The position numbers were made by a program, and so were the translations under genes. A stretch of 63,492 nt of DNA from an uncultured Oscillospiraceae bacterium (GTDB lineage: Bacteria > Bacillota > Clostridia > Oscillospirales > Oscillospiraceae), in assembly GCA_947627285.1 (NCBI GenBank), contig CANQVL010000010.1, positions 1 to 63,492 on the forward strand, read 5' to 3'. Each line of letters starts with the position of its first letter. The first letter of the stretch is position 1. The notes below the pieces were generated by a model that made no database searches, was not told where the DNA came from, and saw only the letters and a program-made list of their open reading frames with translations. This document shows, in pieces, positions 54,953 to 61,765 of the stretch.

Positions 54953-56062
54953 ATGAGCTTTGGACCCGTCACCGAATTTCTCGACGGCCTTGAAAAAACC
55001 CTTGGCATCCCCGCCTGCGAGTGCGTCGTCTACCGCAGCCACAGGGAGGTCTACCGCCACTGCGCCGGACACATGGACCAAACCGGCGGCGAGCCCCTTC
55101 GCGGCGGCGAGTGGTACTGGCTCTACTCCTGCACCAAGCTCGCCACCGTGACCGCCGCCATGCAGCTTTGGGAGCGGGGACTTCTCGGCATAGACGACCC
55201 CGTCTCAAAATATTTCCCCGAGTACGCCGACATGAATGTCATTGAAAACGGCTCCGTACGCCCCGCCGTTACCGCCATGACCGTCCGCCATCTCATGACC
55301 ATGACCGGCGGCCTCAGCTATGACCAGACCCTGCCCTCCGTCCTTGAGGCGAAAAGGAAAAACGCCTCCACCCGCGAGCTCATACGTATGCTTGCCTCCG
55401 AGCCCCTCCGGTTCGACCCCGGCACGCGCTTCCTATACGGCATGTGCCACGACGTCCTTGCCGCCGTCGTCGAGACGGCCTCCGGCGAGCGCTTCTCCGA
55501 CTACCTGGAGGCCCACATCTTCGCCCCCCTGGGCGTCACGGGCGTCACCTTCCGCCCCGGCAGGGAGGAGCTGGAGCGTATGCCATCACAGCTCACCTGG
55601 GACGAAGGCGGGCGCTGCCTGCGTGACGCGGGGCGCGGCAACTCCCACCGCCTGACCCCGGACTATGACTCCGGCGGCGCGGGTATCTGCTGCCGCGCGG
55701 AGGACTATATCCTGTTCCTCGACTCCCTCGCCTGCTCCGGCGAGGGAGCCAACGGAGCGAGGATCCTACGCCCCGAAACGGTTTCGGCTATGACCGAAAA
55801 CCGGCTTTCGGGCCAACCCATGCGTGATTTTTGCGCCGCCATGAAGCCCTCCGGGTCCGAGGGCTACGCCCTGGGTATGCGCGTCCACCTGATCGACGAC
55901 GAATTCCCAAAGGGCGAATTCGGCTGGGACGGCGCCGCCGGCGCCCTGGCGGTAATGGACCCCGGACGCCGCGTGAGCATCCTCTACCTCCAGCACGTCT
56001 TAAAGCTCCGCCCCGACTACGCCGAACTTACGCGCCTCATATACCGCGCCCTTGACGCCTGA
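54953..56062 (+). CDS. serine hydrolase of the class C beta-lactamase fold
   Basis: 369 residues from the ATG at 54953 (GGGGAGGT). The nucleophile motif SxxK is SCTK (about residue 58), within WYWLYSCTKLATVTAAMQLWERGLLGIDDPVSKYFPEY, typical of EstB-like esterases and DD-peptidase relatives. The usual YxN appears as YGM, so the base may differ. No signal peptide, so it is more likely a cytosolic esterase or deacylase for imported sugars than a penicillin-binding enzyme. Last gene of the operon; a terminator follows. Confidence 0.85.
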   Translation: MSFGPVTEFLDGLEKTLGIPACECVVYRSHREVYRHCAGHMDQTGGEPLRGGEWYWLYSCTKLATVTAAMQLWERGLLGIDDPVSKYFPEYADMNVIENGSVRPAVTAMTVRHLMTMTGGLSYDQTLPSVLEAKRKNASTRELIRMLASEPLRFDPGTRFLYGMCHDVLAAVVETASGERFSDYLEAHIFAPLGVTGVTFRPGREELERMPSQLTWDEGGRCLRDAGRGNSHRLTPDYDSGGAGICCRAEDYILFLDSLACSGEGANGARILRPETVSAMTENRLSGQPMRDFCAAMKPSGSEGYALGMRVHLIDDEFPKGEFGWDGAAGALAVMDPGRRVSILYLQHVLKLRPDYAELTRLIYRALDA

Positions 56063-56083
56063 AAACGCCCTCCCTCAAATAAA

Positions 56084-56120
56084 AACGGGTCTTACCGAAA
56101 CCGGTAAGGCCCGTTGCTTT
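56084..56120 (+). terminator. terminator of the glycan operon
   Basis: AACGGG-T-CTTACCG pairs with CGGTAAG-G-CCCGTT (one G-T pair), then GCTTTT. It lies 21 bases after the serine hydrolase stop. Confidence 0.8.
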
Positions 56121-56158
56121 TGGGATATAATAAATCAAAAACAAAGGAGCGGAGCGGC

Positions 56159-56974
56159 ATGGAAAAGGAGCTGACCGGATTTGAAACAGCGCTGCGTGAA
56201 AAGGAGCGCTCACGCGGCACGCGCGAGCAGTACCTTCGCGCGGTAAAAAGATTTTTAAGCGATACAGGCGGCGCGGAGCCGACCCGCGAGGCGGCGGCGG
56301 AGTGGCGCGACGGCCTCCTCCGGCAGGGCTACGCCGCCCCGACGGTGAACGCCATGGTCGCGGCTGTAAACGCCTATTTCGACTACCTCGGACGTCCCGA
56401 GCTGCGCGTGAAGGCCCTGCGCGTCCAGCGCAGCGTTTTCAGAAAGCAGTCCAGGGAGCTCACAGGCGAGGAGTACGGGCGCCTCCTCGCCGCCGCGCCT
56501 GAGCGCCTGAGGCTCATCATGGAAACCGTCTGCTCCACCGGCATACGCGTCAGCGAGCTTCGTTATATCACCGTGGAGGCGGCGAGAGCGGGGGAGGCGC
56601 GCATAAGCCTTAAGGGAAAGCTCAGGACCGTGCTCATGCCGTCCAAGCTCTGCCGCAAGCTTCTGAAATACGCCAAAAAGCAGAAAACCGCCTCCGGCGA
56701 GATCTTTCTCACCGGGCGCGGCAAGCCCCTGACCCGGGGCCAGATTTGGGCTGAGATGAAGGCGTTAGCCAAAAAAACAGGCGTGGAGGCGACGAAGATC
56801 TTCCCCCACAACCTGCGCCATCTTTTTGCCCGGACATTTTACCGCGTCACCCGCGACATCGCCAAGCTCGCCGACGTCCTGGGCCACAGCTCCATCGAGA
56901 CGACGCGGATCTACCTGATAACCACCGGCGAAGAACACCGCCGCGCCCTTGATAAGCTGGGGCTTGTGAGTTAG
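56159..56974 (+). CDS. tyrosine recombinase, probable DNA invertase
   Basis: 271 residues from the ATG at 56159. N-terminal SAM-like DNA-binding domain about 5-85; catalytic domain about 100-270 with all residues: Arg in TGIRVSEL (~129), Lys in SLKGKLR (~151), HNLRH (~216-220), His in LGHSS (~243) and nucleophile Tyr in TRIYL (~252). The size is that of stand-alone XerC/D-like invertases, not of phage integrases with an arm-binding domain. Its stop codon TAG lies inside the left inverted repeat of the segment that follows, so its substrate is probably that segment. Confidence 0.92.
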   Translation: MEKELTGFETALREKERSRGTREQYLRAVKRFLSDTGGAEPTREAAAEWRDGLLRQGYAAPTVNAMVAAVNAYFDYLGRPELRVKALRVQRSVFRKQSRELTGEEYGRLLAAAPERLRLIMETVCSTGIRVSELRYITVEAARAGEARISLKGKLRTVLMPSKLCRKLLKYAKKQKTASGEIFLTGRGKPLTRGQIWAEMKALAKKTGVEATKIFPHNLRHLFARTFYRVTRDIAKLADVLGHSSIETTRIYLITTGEEHRRALDKLGLVS

Positions 56975-56995
56975 GACAAAATTAATCTTTTGTAC
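56971..56995 (+). repeat. left inverted repeat / recombinase crossover site
   Basis: The first 19 bases, TTAGGACAAAATTAATCTT, match the right repeat exactly, followed by one mismatch and TGTAC. Inside it GGACAAAA and TTTTGTAC form near-palindromic half-sites (7 of 8) around a 6-nt spacer TTAATC, the design of a tyrosine-recombinase core. It includes the recombinase stop codon. Confidence 0.85.
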
Positions 56996-57040
56996 CGTGC
57001 ATATGACCCAAACGTGGGAGCCATCACCCCATACAAACGC

Positions 57041-57069
57041 ATTTTATCACCGCAAATCGCAAATGTAAA
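57041..57069 (-). promoter_or_regulatory. promoter inside the invertible segment
   Basis: Minus strand TTTACA (57069-57064), 17-nt spacer, TAAAAT (57046-57041). The predicted start near 57034 reads through the left repeat into the antisense strand of the recombinase gene. It is the only good sigma-A promoter in the segment on either strand. Confidence 0.75.
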
Positions 57070-57100
57070 GCCCATTTTACAAAAAAATTGCACAACGACC

Positions 57101-57140
57101 AGGACCGCGAACGAAAAATTTTCGCCGGTCCTTGTTCTCT
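57101..57140 (+). terminator. terminator-like hairpin inside the invertible segment
   Basis: AGGACC/GGTCCT and GCGAA/TTCGC with one bulged C (57101-57111/57121-57132), then TGTTCTCTTG. In the present state it would stop recombinase transcripts before the SLH gene; after inversion it would lie upstream of the promoter. Confidence 0.55.
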
Positions 57141-57205
57141 TGCCCAAAAGCCTCCATTTTCGCGCCTGAACCCCCGTTCAAAGCCGCGAAAGCTCATGGC
57201 AAGCC

Positions 57206-57230
57206 GTACATAAGATTAATTTTGTCCTAA
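57206..57230 (-). repeat. right inverted repeat / recombinase crossover site
   Basis: Reverse complement of 56971-56995 with one mismatch (24 of 25). Together the two sites are inverted, and the 6-nt core TTAATC is asymmetric, so recombination between them gives inversion rather than deletion. Confidence 0.85.
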
Positions 57231-57316
57231 ACGACCTTAAGGAAGGAGGGGTGCTGACCGCAAGCAAACATGGGACCCACATTCTGATTTGAAAAATACA
57301 TTTTTAAGGAAGGTGT

Positions 57317-60300
57317 ATGAAAATGCGCAATAAAGCTTTAGCCCTTATGCTGGCGCTTGTAATGGTCCTTGCCCTTTTGCCAACGGCAGCATTTGCTGAG
57401 GACAGCGTAGACTTTTCAGGGGAGTTTACCTTGACCGTCGGAAACTACACACTTGAAGAAGGAAGTACGTTTAAGCGTGTTACGGCGCCTGGCGACGGCA
57501 CGAAAACCGGCTTATATTATCTTTTGCCGACAACTGGCAGTGGTGCAAAGGAGTATATTGATATCTCCGGAATCGCCGGAGAAAACCATCCGGTAGTTAT
57601 CAAACACCCAAAAAATGTTCAAGACCATGCAAATTCGGTTGTCTATAAATGCGTCGGTGTCGTTATAAAGGATCAACCGGCGGAATCCAATATTAAGAAT
57701 TTCAATCAAAGCGATAGCCTCACCTTAAATCTGACCGATGAAAACATTCGTATCAGTGGAAATAAGCAATACGTGTCTATTTCTTTTATTTGGCAAAAAG
57801 CTGATACCTATACCGTGACATATGACTTTTCCGGTCCTGAGGGAACAAGTACATATCCGGTCATTGCAAAATATGAGGTAAACGATAGAAGGGGTCCCTG
57901 GGAGCCTCCCTACTCCCTGGGTTATTTCACCGTACCTCAGTCGGAGGATAGGCTGAACCTCATTTATAACGAATCCGACGAACCCTTGAACTGTCTGTAT
58001 AGCCTGTTTCTTGGCAAATTTTCCTTGGACAAGAACGTTGAAGCAAAAAAATTGACTTTATCGGAAGGCAGCAAGTTGGCTGTAATGGTGGCGCAGGGCG
58101 ACAGCGCTTCGGTGCCTCGGCTTGCACAGCACCGGAATCTATCCATGGAAAACAATCTGGCCTCAATGCCAGAGGTATTCTACCCCATTGTAAGCTGGGT
58201 AGCGGTAGGTTCTGGCGGCACTCGTTACGAGCTTTCCGGTTGGAAGGTCAACGGCGAAGGGGAAGCTGTGGCAGCCGGTCTCTATGGTGATGAGTACATA
58301 CCCAGCGGCAACACCACCCTCAAGGCGGATTGGAAGGAGATCACCCTGACCGAAACCGACCCGTCCGACATACCCGAAGTGTCTATTTTAGGCGTTTACG
58401 ACGATGTGGACGCACCCGTGAAGCTCTCACAAAAGACCACCGGGTACTTTGTGGTCGCCCCTGTCGCCACTGACACGACTGGCGCCATTTCCTATCGTGC
58501 CGAGATGAAGCTCTCCGACCTGTTCAGCGGTCTCGACATGCCCTGGCGCACCGGCTCAAGGTATTATAAGTCAGTGGACAACGGGGAGTTCGCTAGTGTC
58601 CAGGTGACGGTAAAGCTGGACGAGCACCTTGTCCCGGCGGATGAAGAAGGCGTCACCTCGATTAAAATTGAAAACGCGTTCCTTGAGTTTGACGAAGCCA
58701 AGGGCGTTGAGGTGGACGGTGAAAAAGTCTCCGTGGAGACGGAAAACAATGTTATCAAGGCGACCCTGAACGGCGCCAAGGTGTTTACCATCAACTTCAA
58801 GTGGCTCAAACCCAGCATTTCGTCCAGCGGTTTAAACATTGAAATTCCCGCCAAGGTGGAGGATGGCTTTGCCGGTGAGATCACAGGCACCACCGTAACC
58901 GTCACCGGCAGCATGGATTTCACAAAGGCCCACAAGGAGGAAAATGCCAATACAGGTACGGCTGAATTCTCCGCCGAAGAGTTCGTCCGCTATTTGCTCG
59001 CCACTGACGAGACGTGGTTTAACAAATACGGCGGCGAGGACATGACCCTGACAGATATGCTCCAAGCGGCTAAGGACGCGCAGACCAAGCTCAGCAAGCT
59101 TGACGCCATGACCTCAAACGCTCTGATTGCCACTGCATCCGAAAAAATCGACAGCCTGACGCTGGACAAGACTGATGATGTCACACTCAACGTCAATGAG
59201 ACTGCCACGCTCACGCCTTCCTTCACACCGAACTCCGTGACCAACAAGGCGGTCACCTGGTCAGTGGACGAAGCCGGTAAAGACGTCGTAAAGGTGGAGA
59301 ACGGCGTGATCACCGGTCTCAAGCCGGGTGAGGCTACCGTCACCTGCACCTCTGTTTATGACACGACAAAGACGGCACAGGTCAAGGTCACCGTCAACGG
59401 TATCGTATATGTGGAATCAGCTGTGGGCGGCACTGTAACGATCACCGGTGATAACGTGGCTCCAATCCCAGGTACTGACAACGCATATTCCGTTAAAAAG
59501 AGCGCCGAAGTTAGCGTCACCGTCACGCCTGACGACGGCAACACGATGGCGGGTGAGCCCTCCGCCTACTATATCAAAACCACCGTTAAATCACCCCAGG
59601 GTGCCGGTCCTGGTAAGGTCGAGATAACGAATGAGGACCTTAAATTGCAAGGCTCTAAAGGCACGTATACCTTTACCCTGCCTGAGGACGCCTCAACTGT
59701 CTATATCAGCGCCGCGTTTGTGATTGAAAGCACCGACGGCAAAACCGTCATCGACGATCCAAAGACCGTCACGGATGGGAATAATAAAGGGTATACTTTT
59801 GCCGATAAAGTAAACGTTAAAGTGGACTCCGAAGCAGTTTCCGAAGTGCTTGATTTGGTAACTGAGGACAGCTCCGAGCAATTCAGCGAGACTGCGCTGA
59901 AAAAGGCCCTTACTGAGGAAAGTGTTAGCGAGCAAGACACTGTCTATCGCCACATTCAGACCCAGGCAAAGATCAGCGTTGACAGTGTAAGTCAGGGCTC
60001 AGCTGTGGGCACTAGAAATATTCAGCTCAACATCGACTTCCAGTACCGCGTAGTGGCCTCCACCGAGGCAGACCCGGAAAAGCTTAATTTTGACAGTGAC
60101 AAAAACGCCGCCGTCATAAAGCCTACTGGCAGCGATGAAAACGGCTGGGTCACCCTTGACAGCAAAGCGCCCGCCTATATTGTGGTGCCGATGCCCACGT
60201 GGATGGGCAAACCGGGCGAATGGGTCAGGGTCACTCATACCCACAACGACGTACCGCTCGAGCCGCAGTATCTTCAAATCCAGGGAGACAGCACCGTTAC

Positions 60301-61465
60301 CTACGTCAATAACGAGGGTTTCTCACCCTTCCTCTTTGAGCAGCTGGCAGGCGTGATGAACATTCGGCTCGAACACAACGGAGAACTCGTTGGCGTTGAA
60401 AACTTCACACCCGCCACAACGACATACAACATCAGTGTTGGTAGCGATGTGGAACGTCTGACATTCGTTCCGGAGGGAAATGTGTCTGGGTTTGTTGTGA
60501 CCTTGAACGGTGAGGAAGTACCGAATACCGGAATTATTGGTAAGAATTCCTACGAACTTAACCTTGCCAGCAACAGCGTCAATAAGGTCGAAATCTCCTA
60601 TAACCACGGTCAGCCATACATAATCAACATCACCCGTGGCACACCGTACAACCCTGCCCCGACCCCCTCCACCTACACCGTAAAGACCAATGAGGTCGAG
60701 AACGCCACGGTTGAAACCTCAGCCACCACCGCCACAGCGGGCACGGACATCACCGTCACCGTCACCCCCGCCGAGAACTACCACGTCTCCGCCCTCACCG
60801 TCACCGCCTCCAACGGCGCGGCAGTCGCTGTCACTGACAACAAGGACGGAACCTACACCTTCAAAATGCCCGCCTCCAACGTCACCGTCGCGGCAGAGGT
60901 CTACGAGTGCCCGTCTATGGCGTTCCCCGACATCGACCTCACCCAGTGGTATCACGAGTATACCGACTACGCCATAGCCCACGGCCTCATGGAGGGCACC
61001 GGTGCCGACTTCGAGCCCGAAACGCTCGTCACCCGCGCTCAAATGGCGGTCATCCTCTGGAACCTCAGCAATAACCCCAAGGTCGAAGCCGAGATCCCCT
61101 TCACCGACGTCCCCGCAAACGAGTGGTACACCGAGGCCATCCGCTGGGCGGCGAGCGTGGAGGTCGTCAGCGGCTGCGGCGACGGCACCTTTAAGCCGGA
61201 CGAGAATATTAACCGCGAGCAGATGGCGGCAATGCTCTACAACTACGAGCAGAAGCTCGGCACCGGCGGCTTCGCGGAGGACGAGACGTTTGACCTGACC
61301 TTCGACGACGCCGCGGAGATCTCCACCTGGGCGCAGGAGGCAGTAGCCTGGTGTACGATGAAGGGCGTCATAAAAGGCAGCGACAACAAATTCACCCCCG
61401 CCAACACAGCCAAACGCTCCGACCTCGCCACCATCCTCTCCCTCTACGACCAGTTGGCGAAGTAA
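57317..61465 (+). CDS. secreted SLH-domain surface protein with Ig-like domains
   Basis: 1382 residues. Signal peptide 1-27 (LALLPTAAFA). Unassigned beta-rich N-terminal region; BIG2-type Ig domain about 612-693 (LTLDKTDDVTLNVNETATLTPSFTPN, GVITGLKPGEATVTCTS); an InlB-B-like repeat about 1119-1195; three SLH repeats about 1200-1380 (FPDIDLTQWYHEYTDYAIAHGLMEG, FTDVPANEWYTEAIRWAASVEVVSG, FDDAAEISTWAQEAVAWCTMKGVIKG) that bind secondary wall polymer. AAGGAAGG precedes the ATG. No promoter is seen between the right repeat and the gene, so expression would depend on the invertible segment. Confidence 0.9.
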   Translation: MKMRNKALALMLALVMVLALLPTAAFAEDSVDFSGEFTLTVGNYTLEEGSTFKRVTAPGDGTKTGLYYLLPTTGSGAKEYIDISGIAGENHPVVIKHPKNVQDHANSVVYKCVGVVIKDQPAESNIKNFNQSDSLTLNLTDENIRISGNKQYVSISFIWQKADTYTVTYDFSGPEGTSTYPVIAKYEVNDRRGPWEPPYSLGYFTVPQSEDRLNLIYNESDEPLNCLYSLFLGKFSLDKNVEAKKLTLSEGSKLAVMVAQGDSASVPRLAQHRNLSMENNLASMPEVFYPIVSWVAVGSGGTRYELSGWKVNGEGEAVAAGLYGDEYIPSGNTTLKADWKEITLTETDPSDIPEVSILGVYDDVDAPVKLSQKTTGYFVVAPVATDTTGAISYRAEMKLSDLFSGLDMPWRTGSRYYKSVDNGEFASVQVTVKLDEHLVPADEEGVTSIKIENAFLEFDEAKGVEVDGEKVSVETENNVIKATLNGAKVFTINFKWLKPSISSSGLNIEIPAKVEDGFAGEITGTTVTVTGSMDFTKAHKEENANTGTAEFSAEEFVRYLLATDETWFNKYGGEDMTLTDMLQAAKDAQTKLSKLDAMTSNALIATASEKIDSLTLDKTDDVTLNVNETATLTPSFTPNSVTNKAVTWSVDEAGKDVVKVENGVITGLKPGEATVTCTSVYDTTKTAQVKVTVNGIVYVESAVGGTVTITGDNVAPIPGTDNAYSVKKSAEVSVTVTPDDGNTMAGEPSAYYIKTTVKSPQGAGPGKVEITNEDLKLQGSKGTYTFTLPEDASTVYISAAFVIESTDGKTVIDDPKTVTDGNNKGYTFADKVNVKVDSEAVSEVLDLVTEDSSEQFSETALKKALTEESVSEQDTVYRHIQTQAKISVDSVSQGSAVGTRNIQLNIDFQYRVVASTEADPEKLNFDSDKNAAVIKPTGSDENGWVTLDSKAPAYIVVPMPTWMGKPGEWVRVTHTHNDVPLEPQYLQIQGDSTVTYVNNEGFSPFLFEQLAGVMNIRLEHNGELVGVENFTPATTTYNISVGSDVERLTFVPEGNVSGFVVTLNGEEVPNTGIIGKNSYELNLASNSVNKVEISYNHGQPYIINITRGTPYNPAPTPSTYTVKTNEVENATVETSATTATAGTDITVTVTPAENYHVSALTVTASNGAAVAVTDNKDGTYTFKMPASNVTVAAEVYECPSMAFPDIDLTQWYHEYTDYAIAHGLMEGTGADFEPETLVTRAQMAVILWNLSNNPKVEAEIPFTDVPANEWYTEAIRWAASVEVVSGCGDGTFKPDENINREQMAAMLYNYEQKLGTGGFAEDETFDLTFDDAAEISTWAQEAVAWCTMKGVIKGSDNKFTPANTAKRSDLATILSLYDQLAK

Positions 61466-61589: not shown

Positions 61590-61765
61590 AAATATTTTTC
61601 CGACGGCATGTACGTCGGAAAAATCACCATTTGTTTTGCAAGTGTGCCGCCTACGGCGGCGCGCGCAGCAAAACAGCAGGGAAGCCCCCGCGAAAGGTCC
61701 GCAGACCTTTCACGGGGGCTTCCCGCACGTTTCCCTCTAAAAAAAGGGGCACAGCCCCTTTTTTT
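61590..61765 (-). repeat. structured 3' repeat element, copy 3
   Basis: Read on the minus strand: hairpin 1, AAAAAAAGGGGC stem (61754-61765/61739-61750) with loop TGT, overlapping the stop of the GGGtGRT gene; linker AGAGGGAAACGTGC; hairpin 2, 21-bp stem (61704-61724/61679-61699, one G-U) with loop TGCG; stem 3 TGTTTTGC (61675-61668) with GCAAAACA (61639-61632) enclosing hairpin 4 GCCGCC/GGCGGC; then ATGGTGA and hairpin 5 (61613-61623/61595-61605), identical to copy 1. It fills the gap between convergent genes. Confidence 0.87.

Follow-up and report, generated by a model that had tools for sequence, protein, structure and literature searches.

A stretch of 63,492 nucleotides (hereafter the window), which is contig 10 of a 2.81-Mb genome in 95 contigs (98.7% complete) from a member of a gut-associated bacterial family, carries what we conclude with high confidence to be a fim-like invertible promoter that drives an SLH protein gene, is flipped by a Xer-type tyrosine recombinase and is one of 16 such modules in the genome. 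A preliminary description of this DNA had seen one stand-alone module, a reading that was dropped when genome-wide site and recombinase searches revealed the array. Judged from its sequence, the locus is very probably a real, working invertible promoter for the SLH protein, and its parts can be read directly, as follows.

56159-56974, plus strand: gene for a Xer-type tyrosine recombinase of 271 aa (Pfam)
56971-56995: left 25-nt inverted repeat (repeat search and arm/core analysis)
56975-56994: left core site, comprising a 7-bp arm, the 6-bp crossover TTAATC (56982-56987) and a 7-bp arm (arm/core analysis)
57041-57069, minus strand: sigma-A-type promoter TTTACA-17-TAAAAT, with TG ahead of the -10 (promoter scan and scoring)
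57101-57132: stable hairpin beyond the promoter, a candidate read-through block (folding)
57167, plus strand: predicted ON-state transcription start (in-silico inversion)
57206-57230: right 25-nt inverted repeat (repeat search and arm/core analysis)
57207-57226: right core site, its matching crossover reading GATTAA on the plus strand at 57214-57219 (arm/core analysis)
57317-61465, plus strand: SLH surface protein of 1382 aa (Pfam; signal peptide by crude pattern)

In the mechanism that we propose, the arms GACAAAA...TTTTGTC of two opposed sites would be bound by a Xer-type tyrosine recombinase, most probably that of the locus itself, and strand exchange within their identical 6-bp core (TTAATC at the window) would invert about 250 bp. 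The captured orientation, in which the only strong promoter faces the recombinase, would leave the SLH gene OFF; inversion would then set transcription to start about 150 nt before that gene (ON), and the hairpin beyond the promoter may stop read-through from the recombinase gene.

The recombinase gene, which had been called complete, indeed encodes both a C-terminal catalytic domain (PF00589, E 2.1e-26) and an N-terminal SAM-like domain (PF02899, E 5.9e-6). The catalytic domain contains the R-K-H-R-H-Y set of Xer-like tyrosine recombinases, at R130, K152 or K154, H217, R220, H243 and Y252. These putative catalytic positions are invariant across an alignment of 11 paralogues and fall in stretches matched with structures 4a8e and 1a0p (XerA-like and XerD chains). 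As an orthologue of XerC, XerD or XerA the protein stayed under the NCBIfam equivalog cut-off (best 142.4 bits vs 220), with 104.3 bits against the XerD model (cut-off 329.6), and by these comparisons it is a Xer-like enzyme other than the housekeeping Xer.

The two repeats, 25 nt each and 24/25 (96%) complementary, bound a segment that measures 260 bp with the repeats included, exactly as first reported, and the first bases of the left one overlap the TAG stop of the recombinase ORF. Inverted recombination sites thus flank a promoter. Within the segment we identified a single strong promoter, on the minus strand (57069-57041) and pointing away from the SLH gene; scan and scoring both reproduced this earlier observation. 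When the segment was mononucleotide-shuffled 1000 times, 4 shuffles reached its score of 13.9, and the scan of 56050-57400 returned one other promoter-like site, which was weaker, on the minus strand and inside the recombinase gene. Most of 11 aligned segments are similar over the promoter region, in which GTAAAG (part of the -35 plus flanking bases) is invariant. From the right repeat to the SLH start, the best plus-strand site scored 4.6 (vs 13.9 in the segment), in keeping with the claim that the SLH gene lacks a strong promoter of its own. As the sole strong promoter points back at the recombinase, the SLH gene would be OFF; of the OFF state originally proposed, the promoter's direction away from the gene stood, while OFF itself is a reading of the promoter consensus. 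Only this orientation was seen at the window locus. A computed flip placed the start near 57167, 150 nt ahead of the SLH start codon at 57317, and so returned the distance of about 150 bases that had been predicted.

The hairpin at 57101-57132 may act as a block against read-through from the recombinase gene. Folding of 57090-57150 gave -19.7 kcal/mol (z -3.75), and most of the eleven aligned segments have a similar stem; in multi-segment folding a different part of the same segment folded best (z -1.1), and the signal over 73 segments was modest (median z -1.7; 27 with z < -2). Such a stable hairpin within the segment would also suit a cwpV-like terminator switch, in which transcription from upstream is ended by the segment in one orientation, but that model sits poorly with the strong, largely conserved promoter inside the segment and with the terminator scan of the window segment, which found no terminator-like site. 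Nor do the final 200 nt of the recombinase gene offer a strong plus-strand promoter to be terminated (best score 1.3), though a plus-strand site scoring 8.7 lies upstream of that gene. We regard this alternative as very improbable. Rfam models gave no match at gathering thresholds in 56900-57400.

The parallel first drawn with cwpV/RecV of Clostridioides difficile did not hold. Both systems combine a XerC/XerD-family recombinase with a large cell-wall protein, but in the parts of PMC2784873 that bear on the point the 195-bp cwpV segment has no promoter and terminator action is proposed for it, whereas the window segment contains a promoter-like site; the promoterless segment of cwpV is what makes it a poor parallel. 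According to the same source, cwpV also resembles the present switches in its imperfect 21-bp inverted repeats and in being mostly OFF, with about 5% of cells expressing (PMC2784873); PMC5903667 states that, in C. difficile, Cdi7 of strain R20291 alone has a nearby recombinase.

The array to which the window locus belongs was delimited by the recombinases and by the sequence past their stop codons (420 nt, or up to the contig end, for each of 16). The genome has 18 recombinase matches, eleven at 71-100% identity (the window's included), five at 44-50% and two at 27-31%. Site pairs were found at 15 of the 16 by repeat search and, when sites were chosen by arms alone, at 16 of 16 with identical cores; eleven have ACAAAA/TTTTGT arms and five ACATTA/TAATGT arms. 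Four modules (C56, C27b, C40 and C33) are ON by promoter direction, eleven are OFF and C70 is unclassed; the eleven ACAAAA-type modules comprise eight OFF, two ON and one unclassed; all modules with a window-like promoter are OFF. Contig breaks near modules were inspected visually for hints of mixed orientation but left out of account, since the repeats would explain such breaks equally well.

The genes that these promoters would serve, their clients, differ with arm type. The window SLH protein has three C-terminal SLH stretches (PF00395, E 5.5e-30), together with Cadherin-like and Flg_new_2 (InlB B-repeat-like) domains, and its start is signal-peptide-like by a crude pattern only; with that candidate signal peptide and three SLH domains, it would be expected to be displayed at the surface. 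It is 43% identical to the protein of module C1a over nearly the full length and 31-43% identical to six others over their C-terminal parts. SLH-domain matches number 92 in the genome, and there is one match to polysaccharide pyruvyl transferase, which is expected for SLH anchoring, a mode of anchoring that differs from that of the cwpV protein. Seven of the eleven ACAAAA/TTTTGT modules lead into a single ORF with three SLH domains, another (C29) into a 531-aa ORF with a signal-like start followed by a 987-aa SLH protein, and three (C70, C56 and C27b) are cut by contig ends. For the ACATTA/TAATGT modules, of which two of five were scanned (C40 and C37 lay outside the scan, the latter because of its length), the next protein of C11 and of C33 carries the Pfam N-terminal methylation motif and is prepilin-like; the C2 client shares its start with the C11 client.

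Strand exchange by tyrosine recombinases requires conserved binding arms and an identical overlap, and conserved arms with locus-matched cores, the pattern so demanded, are what the sites display. For this analysis, both sites of a locus were picked by arm sequence alone, not by mutual match; the input was 82 loci (at least 55% identity), of which 66 had good arms on both sides and were kept, and 16 were dropped for weak arms. The 6-bp cores were the same at both sites in 65 of 66 loci, the single exception (L167) being a misplaced right site. Between loci, cores agreed at a mean of 2.66 of 6 positions, with 75 of 4290 comparisons identical and 39 distinct cores in all. Arms were mostly alike between loci and had within-locus identities of 0.53 to 0.98 at several positions, compared with 0.98 to 1.0 at core positions. 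A mobile-element or att-site reading was rejected: phage and plasmid matches were all below 60% identity, the highest listed being 46.5% and 54.6%, and the inverted orientation of the paired cores implies inversion, not excision.

Across its own genome, the window site pattern (up to 3 mismatches) recovered its own pair plus three paralogous sites, with none in the reversed control. A broader pattern found 21 forward places and 2 in the reversed control, and five of the 21 lie outside the 16 loci (at C3, C5, C9, C33:28362 and the start of C56). One orphan site with a different core, at the start of contig 56 of G000 (L059:5-24), is followed by SLH domains that lie within an open frame of 2400 aa; it may mark where another module, missing through an assembly gap, had its right end. 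An initial reading in which every switch had its own core was abandoned after a recount gave 11 cores for the 16 pairs, with TTACAA in three loci, TAATCA in two and TTGATA in three; the window core, TTAATC, is unique within the genome.

We tentatively propose, at somewhat less than even confidence, that the genome carries a barcoded switch array: 16 surface-gene switches, with their own recombinases and matched cores, would control SLH proteins through one recombinase subfamily and prepilin-like proteins through another. With 11 cores for 16 pairs, and the window's unique, most genes would flip independently and rearrangement between loci would be limited, and a core change would hit both copies of a locus together. 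If so, the surface states open to a single cell line could number up to tens of thousands. A different arrangement, which we consider conceivable but rather doubtful, is that any of the 11 closely related recombinases flips any of the 11 sites in trans, with the core limiting only inter-locus exchange. Common arms would mean that the local enzyme is not dedicated, and it is mainly the core that differs across loci; the other ten recombinases share 71-89% identity with that of the window, their greatest similarity being in the C-terminal half, and one core is common to C27a, C26 and C1b and another to C56 and C27b. Even so, every site pair adjoins its own recombinase, and five of the 21 site-pattern places are elsewhere.

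The recombinase genes of this genome are also mosaic, in that identity along their length differs sharply between pairs. For example, the first 100 alignment columns of C27a match C8 at 99% and C1b at 51%, after which C1b matches at 86-98%, which suggests gene conversion among modules.

Beyond the source genome, recombinase matches at E <= 1e-40 occurred in 26 of the 60 genomes searched (its own counted), and from the named-species genome scan the best 80 of 269 confirmed stretches were used. Merging places that had the same recombinase DNA reduced their number from 138 to 126, a step that could hide a copy in the other orientation. The repeat test covered 99 own and related places that had 450 nt or more downstream, and excluded any for which the window enzyme, at <40%, was the best match; repeats exceeded the 99th percentile of 1980 shuffles at 87 of the 99 and the shuffle maximum at 75, and 12 had no repeat above the threshold. 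Of 79 segments, 73 have one clearly stronger promoter and 6 no clear stronger strand. Scored by these promoters, which are consensus matches, 57 segments are OFF, 16 ON and 6 unclear. Orientation is scattered close to randomly on a FastTree tree of 86 recombinases (12 changes against a shuffled mean of 13.8; 46 of 500 shuffles as low), whereas arm type falls into clusters (2 changes against a shuffled mean of about 12; 0 of 500 shuffles as low; 65 of the 86 rows typed and 21 untyped).

The excess of OFF over ON would fit a role in which the minus-strand promoter, directed into the recombinase gene but on the other strand, makes antisense RNA against the 3' end of that gene and holds the switch OFF, control of the SLH gene being secondary. 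That excess could be selection or assembly bias, however, and all 8 own-genome modules of the window arm type that are uncut by a contig end lead into a gene for an SLH or secreted protein; we think an antisense role improbable.

Support for an invertible promoter operated by the recombinase, as the preliminary description had it, comes from reversed homologous segments, matched cores, the usual presence of one stronger promoter and the near-random orientation on the tree. Among 100 homologous segment pairs, 17 matched best in reverse, six of them over only 29 nt. Eight pairs, most chosen for looking reversed, were aligned with their flanks; four have a reversed segment between two collinear flanks (C37/C33, both in the source genome, 93%; L221/L222, both in G005, a genome of the same genus, 97%; C56/L221, 97%; and L129/L132, 88%), three have a reversal with one flank aligned, and C70/L222 showed no reversal in its flank alignment. 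Such pairs compare paralogues, or loci from different genomes, rather than one locus in two cells, and both orientations at homologous loci with collinear flanks were found in homologues other than the window locus, for which inversion would be expected by analogy.

A decayed relative, in which repeats and recombinase persist, the segment is fixed and the SLH gene is permanently silent, would account for the window being seen OFF only, as are seven other own-genome modules with a similar promoter. Yet the cores are identical, the repeats have 1 mismatch in 25, the putative catalytic residues are intact, and among close relatives C56 and L102 are ON and L077 is OFF, and we judge a locked state quite unlikely.

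One relative has 15 family-2 modules, 12 with repeats (2 ON, 10 OFF, one of the ON also among the 79) and 3 cut. In G024, five family-2 modules (L208, L209, L213, L215 and L216) have identical 24-nt repeats, with which inter-locus recombination would be possible, and three more (L210-L212) are cut by contig ends just past the recombinase. Intestinibacillus massiliensis Marseille-P3216 carries a module (L161) whose client has three SLH domains. On the megaplasmid of Pusillibacter faecalis MM59, the gene next to the module is annotated as an S-layer homology protein, and the two strands have close promoter scores (12.3 vs 10.8); at L227:5845-6152, on the P. faecalis megaplasmid, the site occurs in three copies, two left and one right, so that the invertible segment could take two sizes. 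At 87 places, the chosen downstream ORF was an SLH protein in 15, had a signal-like start in 33 more and neither in 35, with no ORF in 4, in a census where 30 ORFs were cut.

In more distant relatives, many downstream genes encode something other than surface proteins. In eight (L137, L149, L150, L155, L157, L159, L160 and L163), the client begins like SLxDYCxxxGxxxLLxxW, which is not a surface protein and which we presume to resemble a zinc-ribbon protein. Fourteen loci (L141, L144, L147, L153, L162, L168, L169, L171, L173, L174, L179, L180, L181 and L184) have a second, distant (<40% identity) tyrosine recombinase beyond the first, with stop codons 1.1-2.5 kb apart; in several, this second gene appears to be the target of the invertible promoter, which suggests recombinase cascades.

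Two recombinases serve one switch with a fimbrial client in the fimS system of Escherichia coli, unlike the present array, where one recombinase lies beside each of many switches. The likeness to fimS and FimB-FimE, as outlined in part of PMC2784873, is in a short, one-promoter segment, tyrosine recombinases and inverted repeats. Jin et al. 2025 (PMC11892184) describe a probable published kin, inverton group 139, with which the window locus agrees in segment size and in having an adjacent recombinase. In the sections and figure legend of PMC11892184 that describe it, this group has 33 invertons, 32 from Clostridia, with a tyrosine recombinase nearby in nearly all (invertase group 35), and its examples from Intestinimonas butyriciproducens and Clostridium sp. 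D5 (255 and 257 nt) both change orientation in culture, by reads. Both Intestinimonas-genus genomes that we searched have homologues of the window recombinase, on contigs and at positions other than the coordinates of Jin et al., and the main text of PMC11892184 uses neither the word S-layer nor SLH, a difference from the window locus. Compared with cwpV, fimS-like promoter inversion and inverton group 139 (PMC11892184) are the closer parallels. The Mpi promoters of Bacteroides fragilis likewise comprise many invertible regions per genome, polysaccharide loci included, but, according to PMC5903667, a single serine recombinase serves thirteen or more regions, in contrast to the tyrosine recombinases, one per locus, and varied cores found here.

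The kind of switch is known, and what is new is its scale, its SLH and pilin-like clients and the matched-core rule. To our knowledge, surface variation in the Oscillospiraceae has been little studied. Among the matches listed in the open-access literature, titles and abstract starts described no SLH proteins under invertible promoters, and no open-access paper was found that paired 'SLH domain' with 'invertons', which agrees with the earlier remark that no SLH-protein switch with these sites was known. If our reading is right, a single genome encodes many SLH and pilin-like proteins that flip for the most part independently of one another, which may matter for phage escape, host recognition and adhesion. 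The matched-core rule would also offer a direct, sequence-only route to finding such switches and predicting which loci can or cannot recombine, and the many small recombinase/site pairs, with common arms and different cores, would be useful for studies of crossover specificity.

Finally, the surroundings of the SLH gene contain some further elements. Directly past the right repeat, at 57239-57253, we noticed by eye AAGGAAGGAGGGGTG, which resembles a strong Shine-Dalgarno sequence and whose GTG opens a frame of 13 codons, and several paralogues have a similar GGAAGGAGG stretch past the repeat. Between the SLH gene and the convergent gene lies an inverted repeat of 21 nt (61679-61724; 95% complementary, 4-nt spacer).
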